Part shown: one piece after another, positions 3,809-32,760 of the stretch
How positions within the stretch are numbered: position 1 is the first letter of the stretch
Layout of the letters: each line of letters begins with the position of its first letter
Assembly: GCA_029251505.1 (NCBI GenBank)
Contig: JAQXDG010000081.1
Location: 1-64,000, forward strand
From: Glaciecola sp.
GTDB lineage: Bacteria; Pseudomonadota; Gammaproteobacteria; Enterobacterales; Alteromonadaceae
DNA length: 64,000 nt
Direction: 5' to 3'
Notes under the pieces: generated by a model
Database searches by the model: none
What the model saw: only the letters and a program-made list of their open reading frames with translations
What the model was told of the DNA's origin: nothing
Translations under genes and position numbers: made by a program

Positions 3809-4750
3809 TTATTTATTAACCAACTTTAGTATCAGATCAACATTATCCGTTGCAAACGTATCTAACCAAACCACGTCATCCCAGCCGCGAAGCCACGTTA
3901 TCTGGCGCTTTGCTAATTGCCTGGTTGCGATAATACCGCGTTCAACCATTTCGGCATGACTAAGCTGACCAGATAAATGTTGCCACATTTGTCGGTATCC
4001 TACACAGCGGATTGCGGGTAAATCCTCAAATAAATCACCACGAGCTATTAATTGTTGGACCTCAGCGGCGAAATCTTGTTCTAACATCTGTGTAAAACGC
4101 AACGCGATCCTTTCATGCAATACGCTTCTTTCTTGTGGAGCAATCGCAAATTGAGCAACACAATAGGGGATCGGGCCACTAGATTCTTGCTGTAACACGG
4201 ACAAGGGTCTGCCGCTAAGCTGGTAAACTTCTAATGCACGGGTAATTCGTTGTGGATCATTAGGATGAATGCGCGCGGCACAAACCGGATCGATAACCGT
4301 TAATTGTGCGTGCATGTGGGGCCAGCCTTTTTCGGTGCCTTGCTCTTCAATTTCTGCACGAACACACGCATTACTGGCTGGCAACGTTGATAACCCTTTT
4401 ACCAACGCGTTGTAATACATCATTGTTCCGCCCACTAACACCGGCAACTTATTACGCGACAAAATATCTGCAATCAAACGCTCTGCATCGTGACGAAACT
4501 GCGAAACCGAATACGTCATACTCGGGTCAATAATATCTATCAAGTGATGGGGAACTTGTGCCAATTCTTCGGCGGTGGGTTTCGCCGTGCCAATATCCAT
4601 AGATTGGTAAATAAGCGCAGAATCAACACTGATTATTTCACAATCGACATGCTTAGCGAGCTCAAGCGCTAATGATGTTTTTCCCGAAGCCGTAGGGCCC
4701 ATAATAAACACAACTTGCGCTAAGTGGTCTGCACTTGCCACTTGATACAT
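3809..4750 (-). CDS. miaA: tRNA dimethylallyltransferase
   Basis: [19 protein letters not shown]-loop; DIGTAKPT; located between mutL and hfq. Confidence 0.95.
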
Positions 4751-6481
4751 TTAGCTTTCCTTGGTGCACAGTTGTACCTGTGCTGGTTGAATATGTTGGG
4801 CAATGATATGGTGCTGCTGCGAACTGGTTAACCCAATAAACCAATGCAATGCTAATGCTCGAATAGAAGGATATTGTGAATCAATAACAAACAAACTTAA
4901 CGCGAGTTGCTCATACACATCATCCGTGTGCAACGGCGCCGCTTCTAGTATATCCACAAATAAACGACTCCACGGCAGCGAGCGTAATAAACTCGGTACC
5001 TTTTTTAGTAGCCATTTTTGCGTATGATTACCTGCAACATGATGTTCTACTAATAATTGTGATTGTGTAAATTGCGCTAATAACTTTGGACTAACATTTA
5101 TGTCTACGTTTACTGCGCTAGCAATTGGCAATAGTAATGGCTGCTGCGTTTCTGATGCACTCATTTGCTGCTGTAAATATTTAGCGACGATGCATCGTGA
5201 ATCACACAACAGTAACTGATTAGTTTGAACTAACACATCGTATTGGTTTAGCGACTGCGTAAGCACTAATACTTGAGTTTGCATGCTACCAGGTTGTTCT
5301 GCTAAGTGATTCGCGCCACTTTGAACACTCAACGGTTGCATTAAGCTATCGTAATTCGCTACCGCTTGCTTAGCTACAGCGGCACCTTGGCCTCGTGGTG
5401 GTTGATATGTTGTTGTCTCTGTATGACGTGACAATGGCTGAATGTAATCATGCTCAACAGTAAGTTCATCATAGTTAACTACCGGATTATCGGTAAATGA
5501 ACGATTCAGTACGTCGACCAAAGATTGATATAAAAAATCATGTACCACGCGACTATTTACAAATCGCACTTCGTGTTTGGCAGGATGCACATTGACATCA
5601 ACATCGGTATATGGGACTTCAATAAAGAGGACATATCCAGGATAATACTGACTATCTATTAATCCTTCATAGGCTTGTCTGACAGCATGGTTGATTAATT
5701 TATCGCGCATCATGCGGCCATTCACAAAGGTATATTGGGCGTCATTTTGGGTGCGATGTACCATAGGCTTAGTCAACCATGCGGTGACTTTAATCCCTTG
5801 ATAATCGCGCTCTACCGAGACACAATCATTAATAAAGCCTTTGCCGCAGATTGCATCAATACGTTTTTCAATAGACTGTACAGGTAACTGACGAATGGTT
5901 TTGCCGTTATGCGTAAGTTTGAATGCGACTGCATGATGCGACAACGCCATGCGTTTGATCAGCTCATCAACGTGCGTAAATTCAGTTTTATGCGTTTTTA
6001 AAAATTTACGCCTAGCCGGTGTATTAAAAAATAAATCGACCACATCAACGGTGCTTCCGTCAGGATGAGCTGCAGGGTTCATAATCACATCCATATCACG
6101 ACCTTCACAATTTACTTGCCATGCTTCAGATTGAGTTGCTGGCTTAGAAGTCAAGGTTAAGCGTGCGACAGAGCTAATACTTGCCAGTGCTTCACCACGA
6201 AATCCGAGACTCGCAATTTGTGCCAGATCTTCAATCGATGTAATTTTACTGGTTGCATGTCTTGATAAGGCTAACGCTAATTCGTCTTGCACAATCCCAC
6301 ACCCATTATCGGTGATGGTGATCCGTTTTTGCCCGCCTTGTTCGATGTTAATGTCGATTTTAGTGGCACCAGCATCAATGCTGTTTTCAACCAGTTCTTT
6401 GACTATAGATGCGGGGCGCTCAACCACCTCACCCGCGGCAATCTGGTTAGCGAGTTGCGCTGATAATATTTGAATACTCAA
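4751..6481 (-). CDS. mutL: DNA mismatch repair protein MutL
   Basis: GHKL ATPase motifs: IAAGEVVERPASIVKELVENSIDAGAT, DNGCGI, ATSKI, GFRGEAL. Confidence 0.96.
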   Translation of the reverse strand: MSIQILSAQLANQIAAGEVVERPASIVKELVENSIDAGATKIDINIEQGGQKRITITDNGCGIVQDELALALSRHATSKITSIEDLAQIASLGFRGEALASISSVARLTLTSKPATQSEAWQVNCEGRDMDVIMNPAAHPDGSTVDVVDLFFNTPARRKFLKTHKTEFTHVDELIKRMALSHHAVAFKLTHNGKTIRQLPVQSIEKRIDAICGKGFINDCVSVERDYQGIKVTAWLTKPMVHRTQNDAQYTFVNGRMMRDKLINHAVRQAYEGLIDSQYYPGYVLFIEVPYTDVDVNVHPAKHEVRFVNSRVVHDFLYQSLVDVLNRSFTDNPVVNYDELTVEHDYIQPLSRHTETTTYQPPRGQGAAVAKQAVANYDSLMQPLSVQSGANHLAEQPGSMQTQVLVLTQSLNQYDVLVQTNQLLLCDSRCIVAKYLQQQMSASETQQPLLLPIASAVNVDINVSPKLLAQFTQSQLLVEHHVAGNHTQKWLLKKVPSLLRSLPWSRLFVDILEAAPLHTDDVYEQLALSLFVIDSQYPSIRALALHWFIGLTSSQQHHIIAQHIQPAQVQLCTKES

Positions 6482-30061: not shown

Positions 30062-30403
30062 CTAACGCTTTCGTACTGGTTTATACTGGGTTGCACAATA
30101 GCCTCTAGATACATCTTTGGAACGTAATGCGCCGTGCTTAGTCTTGCGCCCAGATACGCGTGCACGCCAGTTATTAAATGTTTTGCGCTTGATGCTCGCA
30201 CGCATTAGCTTAATCACTTCCGCTTCTTTTAACCCATATAAAGCTTGAATAGCTTCAAAAGGGGTACGGTCTTCCCACGCCATTTCAATAATACGTGAAC
30301 GTATTTCTTCATCCATTTTATCTTTGGGTAAACGCGCAACATCAGTTAAAATTTCATTATGTTTTGCCGATTCGTTGTGCGGCGTACGAGGTGTGTCTAA
30401 CAT
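30062..30403 (-). CDS. TIGR03643-like conserved protein
   Basis: RIIEMAWEDRTPFEAIQALYGLKEAEVIKLMRASIKRKTFNNWRARVSGRKTKHGAL. Confidence 0.65.
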   Translation of the reverse strand: MLDTPRTPHNESAKHNEILTDVARLPKDKMDEEIRSRIIEMAWEDRTPFEAIQALYGLKEAEVIKLMRASIKRKTFNNWRARVSGRKTKHGALRSKDVSRGYCATQYKPVRKR

Positions 30404-30471: not shown

Positions 30472-32628
30472 TCAATAAGATTTATTACTCAAACGATAAT
30501 CATTAATAATCGTGAGTAATTCATTGGCTGCGATAGCATCAGACATCGCACGATGATGCCGTGTCATATCGATATTAAAGGCCGCTGTTAAGTTGGCTAA
30601 TGAGTATGATTTTAATCCCGGCTTAGCTTTGCGCATTTCTCTCACTGTGCACAGCTTGGCACGACTAAAACGCCGTTCAATACGGGTAAACTCTTGTTTA
30701 ATAAAGCCATAATCAAAATTCACATTGTGAGCCACAAAAACACAACCTTTGGTAAATTGCGCGACTTCATCGGCCACTTCAGCAAATATCGGGGCGTCTG
30801 CAACCATTTCATCGTCAATCCCGGTTAAAGCTGTAATATTGCGTGGAATTCGACATTGTGGATTGAGTAAGGTCTCATATTCCTCAATAATCTCCCCATT
30901 CACCACCTTGACCATGCCAATTTCAGTAATTTTATGTTGGGCCGCTCTCCCACCTGTCGTTTCAATATCCACAACAACATAAGGCTGCATCGGGTCAATG
31001 CCCCATTCAACAGTAGTAATCCCTACCTTCATACCGGCTTTAGTCAGCATGGTGATGGTTACCAATTGATTTTTGCGGACACTATCCCCTTGGGCTTTAA
31101 TTTCTTCAAAATGAATACCTTGGTCAGTGAGCACTAACAAATCTGGAAAGCCATCACTATAAGCCGAATAATCCTGCGCCATCATTTTTAGTACGCGATT
31201 CAATGCCGCTATATCAACATGATCGACAAACAACAGTAAGCGTTGTAATAATTGTTTATGCCAACGAAAAATCCCGCTACCTTGACCATAATGCATTGTC
31301 GCTTGGCGGATCAAATGTTGTTTTAATCCTGCTCTTGTGGCACATTGCGTGAGCATCTGCTCCACTTGTTCGGTTGCACTCGTATATAGATTATTATGCC
31401 GAACGTGATACGGTCGCCAATCAAACTCAGTACCAATCGCAAATTCGGGCGCAAACAAAATCGGCCAAAATACCAATCCAAACACACTGCGCCACAATTC
31501 ATTTTCGGTGCGCAACGCTCGAATACCTTGAGCTTGATAGTATTCAACTGAAGCGGCTTCAACGCGATGCTTATGCACTTCATCCAAGATCAAATGCCGA
31601 GCGCTATTGCGCAGCATATCAGTTAAGACACTGGTGCGTTTTTTATGATATTTGCGCGCTAAAAAATCTTCAGCAAACGCAAGCAAGTAAGAGTTATCAG
31701 GCGTATCAATAATCGCTTCAAGTTGGGCTTGAACACGCACTTTATCCCCGTATTGATAAGCTAGGCGAATAGCTTTTTCTTGGGCTTGCGGAAGTGTAGA
31801 TGCAGCAAGAATATGTGCAACTCTTGTCCACTCCTCGCCGGCTTGTAGGCAATGTTTTCCCCATAACCACAAATACTCAGCTCGATGTTGCTCGGCAAGT
31901 TCTCCTTGTGCTTCAGGGCATTGCGCCAACGACTGCCATCGTGGTTCAAATTGCAGATTATGTTTAAGCACTTCTTTTATGCGTGCTAACTCAATCGCAT
32001 AGACATACGTAGATAAAGCCTGATCGCGTGAACTAAAACGCGCTTGGGCTTGAGCGGCGCGTTTACGCGTGCGCATCACGCCTAAATCGCGCATCGAAAA
32101 TTGATTCAACCTACTGCCGATATTGCCAAAAAACAAAAACAGTAAATAATCTAAAACGCCATCGACTTGCCGATAAATATATTGTTGGTAAATGTAATGC
32201 TCAGACACACTAATGAATGTTAAATGGGTCAACGCAAGTTCAACAATGGTGGCTTTATTTGCAGCTGCAGCCACTGAAGCACAGGTACAATCACTTAACA
32301 GCGTCACTAATTCAGGTTTAGTCAACCCCACTAACCAATTCTTAAAAGTGTGCTCAGGAATAGGGGTAAACCATGCATGTGTATGGCATTGCTGGACGCC
32401 GCGATGATGATCTGGGATCTCATCATAGGCTAATGAACTGACTTTGATACAGTTCACCTTGCGATTTAAACTGCGCACCAAAGTACATTGTACAGACAGC
32501 TCCGCAGTCGCAAATGTATGCATAAACGCCTGATGCTCAGGCGCTAGCAACTCACGACAAGCTTCATTTATGAATCCCAGGCATTCTTGAAAATGCTCAA
32601 GATAATAATAAGTTGGTAAATCTTTCAT
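30472..32628 (-). CDS. FAN1-like VRR-NUC nuclease fused to a C-terminal DEDDh 3'-5' exonuclease
   Basis: VRR-NUC-like DGFPDLLVL...IHFEEIKAQGDSVRKNQLVTITMLTKAGMKVGITTVEW; followed within a few residues by DEDDh motifs VVDIETTG, VAHNVNFDYGF, HHRAMSDA. Confidence 0.85.
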   Translation of the reverse strand: MKDLPTYYYLEHFQECLGFINEACRELLAPEHQAFMHTFATAELSVQCTLVRSLNRKVNCIKVSSLAYDEIPDHHRGVQQCHTHAWFTPIPEHTFKNWLVGLTKPELVTLLSDCTCASVAAAANKATIVELALTHLTFISVSEHYIYQQYIYRQVDGVLDYLLFLFFGNIGSRLNQFSMRDLGVMRTRKRAAQAQARFSSRDQALSTYVYAIELARIKEVLKHNLQFEPRWQSLAQCPEAQGELAEQHRAEYLWLWGKHCLQAGEEWTRVAHILAASTLPQAQEKAIRLAYQYGDKVRVQAQLEAIIDTPDNSYLLAFAEDFLARKYHKKRTSVLTDMLRNSARHLILDEVHKHRVEAASVEYYQAQGIRALRTENELWRSVFGLVFWPILFAPEFAIGTEFDWRPYHVRHNNLYTSATEQVEQMLTQCATRAGLKQHLIRQATMHYGQGSGIFRWHKQLLQRLLLFVDHVDIAALNRVLKMMAQDYSAYSDGFPDLLVLTDQGIHFEEIKAQGDSVRKNQLVTITMLTKAGMKVGITTVEWGIDPMQPYVVVDIETTGGRAAQHKITEIGMVKVVNGEIIEEYETLLNPQCRIPRNITALTGIDDEMVADAPIFAEVADEVAQFTKGCVFVAHNVNFDYGFIKQEFTRIERRFSRAKLCTVREMRKAKPGLKSYSLANLTAAFNIDMTRHHRAMSDAIAANELLTIINDYRLSNKSY

Positions 32629-32635
32629 ATTAATA

Positions 32636-32651
32636 GTGTATATTTATACAG
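32636..32651 (-). promoter_or_regulatory. LexA/SOS-box-like palindrome upstream of the VRR-NUC/exonuclease gene
   Basis: Minus strand CTGTATAAATATACAC versus CTGTATATATATACAG, 14 of 16 positions; 7 nt upstream of the ATG; 3' half ends CAC instead of CAG. Confidence 0.4.
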
Positions 32652-32760
32652 CTTAATTGTAAAATATTGTCTGTATATTGTGTTTATTTATTCGTAAATA
32701 AATCCTTATGCCGACACTATGCGTATGACTTTATATAATAAATAGACCGACTGGAAGATC

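Follow-up and report, generated by a model that had tools for sequence, protein, structure and literature searches.

The window, by which we mean the whole analysed stretch of 64,000 nt of Glaciecola DNA, holds on its minus strand a single, unbroken open reading frame (ORF) that starts with ATG and encodes a protein of 718 aa (Table 1). The original prediction, made from the letters alone, had described this ORF as a FAN1-like VRR-NUC nuclease fused to a DEDDh 3′–5′ exonuclease with almost no linker. Reading of the window bears out the uninterrupted frame, Pfam domains above their cut-offs bear out the assignment of both nucleases, and every motif quoted at the time is present in the ORF. Directly downstream of the fused gene, and in the same direction, lies a DUF2805 gene (30062–30403, minus strand); upstream, the start codon is preceded by a predicted LexA operator that overlaps a weak sigma-70-like promoter.

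Table 1. Features of the fused gene and its upstream region, with positions in the window
Feature	Position	Strand	Evidence
FAN1-DEDDh fusion gene, 718 aa	30472..32628	-	ORF, orthologues
FAN1_HTH domain, residues 7–86	32371..32610	-	Pfam PF21315, 1.8e-15
Codon of E375 (catalytic Glu in the VRR-NUC site of FAN1; precedes the stretch matched by Pfam)	31504..31506	-	PaFAN1 pairing, conservation
VRR-NUC nuclease domain (Pfam extent), residues 446–542	31003..31293	-	Pfam PF08774, 1.3e-12
Junction, residues 542–550 (WGIDPMQPY)	30979..31005	-	Alignment of 45 sequences
DEDDh 3′–5′ exonuclease, residues 551–704	30517..30978	-	Pfam PF00929 RNase_T, 1.6e-35; conservation; fold match
Predicted LexA operator CTGTATAAATATACAC, one mismatch to CTGT-N8-ACAG, 8–23 bp before the start codon	32636..32651	-	Motif, conserved in orthologues
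Weak sigma-70-like promoter TTTACA-17-TACACT, overlapped by the LexA box	32635..32663	-	9/12 matches; scan count overall not above background

Domain architecture and structure model

The Pfam matches to FAN1_HTH, VRR_NUC and RNase_T all exceed the curated cut-offs, and the HMM search named with the prediction as a possible refutation thus assigned both the VRR-NUC and the DEDDh (RNase_T) domain. The prediction was right about the VRR-NUC domain and understated its context: a whole FAN1 is present, of which the N-terminal domains and E375 had gone unmentioned. Residues 6–545 align end to end with residues 19–558 of Pseudomonas aeruginosa FAN1 (PaFAN1; PDB 4r89/5y7g; E 2e-20), and the VRR-NUC catalytic set (E375, P495-D496, E509-x-K511 and Q521) pairs with PaFAN1 residues. 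In the sequence alignment, the C-terminal end of PaFAN1 roughly coincides with the start of the exonuclease in the window protein. From there on, the counterparts in the alignments are exonucleases (S. aureus DinG, PolC and E. coli epsilon, over residues 547–706), and the Exo I, II and III motifs of the window protein are complete (D554, E556, D639, H692 and D697). The window protein is a whole FAN1 (the first 545 residues, comprising HTH, a putative SAP-like region, helical middle and VRR-NUC) followed by a whole DEDDh exonuclease. Pfam reported no FANC_SAP domain in three fused members, while finding one in an unfused FAN1 (L170), and gave no match to a GIY-YIG domain in the window protein.

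An AlphaFold2 model, a check suggested with the prediction, was built from 41 alignment rows; it is confident (mean pLDDT 91.6, pTM 0.79) and contains both folds. The top Foldseek match is PaFAN1 bound to 5′ flap DNA (5y7q; TM 0.82 by target, E 1e-26, 571 columns), with human FAN1 ranking after the PaFAN1–5′ flap complexes; the model aligns along the whole of PaFAN1, revealing a FAN1-type fold over the full length of that protein. The exonuclease half matches the S. aureus DinG exonuclease at 1.6 Å, and PolC and epsilon were matched as well. Between the last FAN1 strand (535–543) and the first exonuclease strand (550–557) there are only six residues, so that the near-absence of a linker holds true in the model. 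It holds equally across 45 diverse fused members (33–67% identity to the window protein), which served as our conservation set: residues 536–561, spanning the junction, carry no indel in any of them, and the junction residues P546, Q548 and Y550 are 96–100% conserved.

Distribution, conservation and origin of the fusion

The fusion occurs in a single frame in 62 of the 199 sampled genomes of the family (Alteromonadaceae), with one copy (L011) lacking approximately the first 100 residues. A Glaciecola MAG carries an orthologue that is 96% identical to the window protein. Beyond the family, the fusion was found in a second family of the same order, in a gammaproteobacterial family outside that order, in Pseudoalteromonas replicons, on Bradyrhizobium plasmids and in a single alphaproteobacterium that belongs to a family other than that of Bradyrhizobium; in the phylum sample, it was also found in large-genome relatives of the Pseudoalteromonas and Bradyrhizobium carriers. 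One Bradyrhizobium-like genome encodes two copies (L148 and L149), about 4.4 Mb apart. Where an annotation of the fused gene is present, it merely reads 'exonuclease domain-containing protein'.

Both active sites are conserved throughout the 45 fused sequences. All residues of the FAN1 catalytic set are invariant, as are D554, D639, H692 and D697 of the exonuclease, while E556 is kept in 44 of the 45. In one alphaproteobacterial copy (L116), DIGTSG replaces DIETTG and the exonuclease glutamate is gone, which possibly makes it a natural exonuclease-dead variant. Of the two halves, the exonuclease is the better conserved among fused members: pairwise identity averages 60% there and 37% in the FAN1 half. 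The pairwise distances of the two halves are correlated (r=0.80; 0 of 2000 permutations), as expected if both halves travel together.

These data bear on whether the two halves could be incidental neighbours on one chain, brought together by read-through or an assembly artefact, or with one half dead. One database record does contain the gene split in two (L037), the sole split copy observed; however, its break falls near residue 406–409, inside the FAN1 half and away from the junction. Against such an origin stand the single frame in dozens of independent genomes, the invariant active sites and the gap-free junction. An artefactual fusion, the refutation that the prediction had itself raised, is ruled out by this conservation, as is read-through, and we regard incidental association in any form as extremely improbable. 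The scaffold with the split gene is labelled alpha proteobacterium HTCC2255, while the copy is of the Glaciecola type (75% identical); the scaffold itself seems to be gammaproteobacterial, either mislabelled or a contaminant.

A quick, unrooted tree of FAN1 regions only (26 fused and 26 unfused rows, restricted to sequences in which a simple motif marked the cut point) places all fused rows on one side of a branch and unfused FAN1 on the other, with 100% SH-aLRT support. In the exonuclease tree, the fused domains group apart from the other sampled DEDDh domains (support 82), and two 'other' rows that fall within the fused clade are the broken and the truncated fused genes mentioned above (L037 and L011, respectively). 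The neighbours of the fused domains are DEDDh domains of ~470–500 aa proteins; in the one case checked with Pfam (L039) the protein has a GIY-YIG domain, and most of the others contain a GIY-YIG-like motif. The simplest reading would be that the fusion arose once in Proteobacteria and was then inherited vertically, with some horizontal spread.

Predicted SOS control and gene neighbourhood

The window as a whole contains 12 LexA-like sites with at most one mismatch, versus 19 expected by chance. The box in front of the fused gene is not significant on its own, and the case for SOS control therefore rests on its conservation across relatives. Counting boxes with ≤1 mismatch within 150 bp upstream of non-redundant genes, 49 of 61 fused gammaproteobacterial genes have one (22 of them perfect), versus 15 of 144 control ORFs of related loci (Fisher 1e-22, with related genes counted as independent); the other 12 fused copies have no clear box within 150 bp. 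In the Glaciecola genome itself, the perfect gammaproteobacterial motif precedes lexA, umuDC, uvrD and rmuC (identities read from ORFs). A further occurrence, after pncC/cinA at the end of a contig, probably precedes recA, which would be expected at that place.

The LexA operator of alphaproteobacteria differs from the gammaproteobacterial box and consists of GAAC/GTTC-N7 repeats. A perfect GAAC-N7-GAAC precedes all seven Bradyrhizobium-type fused genes, 48–160 bp upstream, where simple arithmetic gives a chance expectation of ~0.013 per gene; none was found before L193, an alphaproteobacterial copy of another family. The operator in front of the fused gene is thus the one that its host class uses, an argument that SOS control has been selected for, and from these operators we predict that the gene is under the control of LexA.

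LexA control mostly does not extend to unfused FAN1, as only three of the 27 unfused FAN1 genes sampled have a box. One of these is the broken fused gene of L037; the other two, L170 and L171, are truly unfused and have the LexA-like boxes CTGTATAAAGATACAG and CTGTATATAAAGCCAG upstream, so that the fused form may not be the only FAN1 under SOS control. It was likewise rejected as a property of the DEDDh-GIY-YIG family, where three of the 43 sampled genes are preceded by a LexA-like box. Unusually for that family, the CTGT-N8-ACAG motif of one member (L124) is perfect and lies 34 bp upstream of the gene.

No conserved operon partner was found across the gammaproteobacterial loci, and the genes that recur beside the fused gene are local to some relatives. 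The DUF2805 gene neighbours it in eight loci, including the window. A small HNH-family gene (~97–123 aa) lies just upstream in several relatives (L035, L036, L134, L136, L150 and L151) and was not found in the neighbourhood of the window. In three Bradyrhizobium loci (L129, L148 and L149), the fused gene adjoins a gene for an SRAP (SOS response associated peptidase; YedK/HMCES-like) protein; the match in L149 is only partial. Between the SRAP gene (4167–4916) and the fused gene of L129 lies a perfect alphaproteobacterial LexA box. A mobile or phage origin was considered and rejected: no phage record spans both halves, and a scan of viral contigs returned matches to the exonuclease only.

Proposed function and comparison with known systems

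Published work on FAN1 orthologues, including that of Pseudomonas, describes cleavage of 5′ flaps a few bases beyond the branch point together with 5′–3′ exonuclease activity (PMC4103454). A cut-then-trim action has been proposed for the mycobacterial fusion of GIY-YIG and epsilon (PMC1564403), and the same logic can be applied to FAN1-DEDDh: once SOS-induced, FAN1 would make an incision and resect 5′–3′ on one side, and DEDDh would do the trimming on the 3′ side. On balance, we think that the protein is probably an SOS-inducible, bifunctional DNA-repair nuclease, in which 5′ flap or crosslink incision by FAN1 and 3′ end trimming by DEDDh take place on one repair intermediate; we infer that both halves are active, that they act jointly on one substrate, and the order of the steps. 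LexA would repress the gene until DNA damage occurs. By homology, the FAN1 half (residues 1–545) would then bind a 5′ flap, nick or gap by a blocked or crosslinked site, cut the 5′-ended strand past the lesion and proceed 5′–3′. The DEDDh exonuclease (residues 546–718) would remove nucleotides 3′–5′ from the 3′ end at the same site, with the linker-free joint holding both active sites on one intermediate. A single enzyme could in this way open and clean a gap from both sides, so as to unhook what remains of a crosslink or remove a damaged 3′ end, and leave a 3′-OH for repair synthesis.

Two other explanations of the same data have to be weighed. The DEDDh half could be mainly accessory (proofreading or protecting by degrading released flaps or single strands, or only aiding DNA binding), which would leave FAN1 incision as the sole step that matters; DEDDh domains are indeed widely appended to other enzymes (PolC, DinG and Cas2), and homologues of the FAN1 half do their work without such an exonuclease. 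However, retention of the full DEDDh site across the 45 sequences, save for the one lost glutamate, and the stronger conservation of the exonuclease half speak against a minor role, which we deem unlikely. Slightly less likely still, in our estimate, is that the targets of the enzyme are not crosslinks but replication-fork or recombination intermediates in general, or else incoming or plasmid DNA, with the SOS link reflecting this broader role. The preference of unfused FAN1 for 5′ flaps, which arise in many settings, would fit such a nuclease, as would the patchy distribution in the family and the presence of two Bradyrhizobium copies on conjugative plasmids. Yet many fused copies sit amid housekeeping-type genes, in surroundings partly conserved between close relatives, defence or mobile genes are never consistent partners, and the phage and viral searches described above returned no protein with both halves.

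Within the favoured reading of a two-ended repair nuclease, one may speculate further that FAN1-DEDDh works as a self-contained, SOS-induced machine for crosslink unhooking, with the lesion-bearing strand attacked from both ends (FAN1 5′–3′, DEDDh 3′–5′) by a single chain, although we hold this more specific version to be doubtful. If true, one bacterial protein would do the work that eukaryotes divide between FAN1 and separate 3′–5′ nucleases. The architecture had been flagged as unknown among characterized enzymes, and in the open-licence literature we likewise found no paper that describes VRR-NUC together with DnaQ or DEDD. What appears to be new is the combination, in a member of the FAN1 family, of an additional catalytic domain with predicted SOS control. 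Little is understood of how bacteria remove interstrand crosslinks other than by UvrABC/recombination, and few tests have addressed the biological role of bacterial FAN1; a FAN1 with predicted SOS regulation and a built-in 3′–5′ exonuclease partner would offer a direct experimental handle on that role, and the fusion is a natural design for asking which 3′–5′ nuclease should follow FAN1.

Among known systems, PaFAN1 (PA1865; PDB 4r89, 5y7g and 5y7q) shares FAN1_HTH, the helical middle and a VRR-NUC domain with the E-PD-ExK-Q set, at ~22% identity by structure alignment, and stops at the point where the fusion continues with its exonuclease. PA1865 has been described as guiding crosslink unhooking and was reported to be induced by UV-C and ciprofloxacin (PMC12796719). 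Unfused FAN1 proteins are separate from the clade of sampled fused FAN1 halves, and most of the sampled unfused genes lack a LexA box. Standalone phage and bacterial VRR-NUC proteins belong to the same nuclease superfamily and have the E-PD-ExK motif, but these are single-domain dimers resolving Holliday junctions, in contrast to the window protein with its complete FAN1 frame; according to the FAN1 structure paper, the majority of bacterial VRR-NUC proteins consist of a single domain. For the DEDDh half, the best relatives of solved structure are the exonuclease domains of DnaQ-DinG/S. aureus DinG (36% identity) and PolC, whose partner is a helicase or a polymerase instead of a 5′ flap nuclease. 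Its nearest relatives among the sampled sequences are the DEDDh-GIY-YIG (Cho/UvrC-like) fusions, including mycobacterial epsilon-GIY-YIG. These likewise combine a structure-specific endonuclease and a 3′–5′ exonuclease on one chain, but have GIY-YIG in place of VRR-NUC, carry the exonuclease at the N-terminus rather than the C-terminus and, unlike the fused FAN1-DEDDh genes, are seldom preceded by LexA-like boxes.
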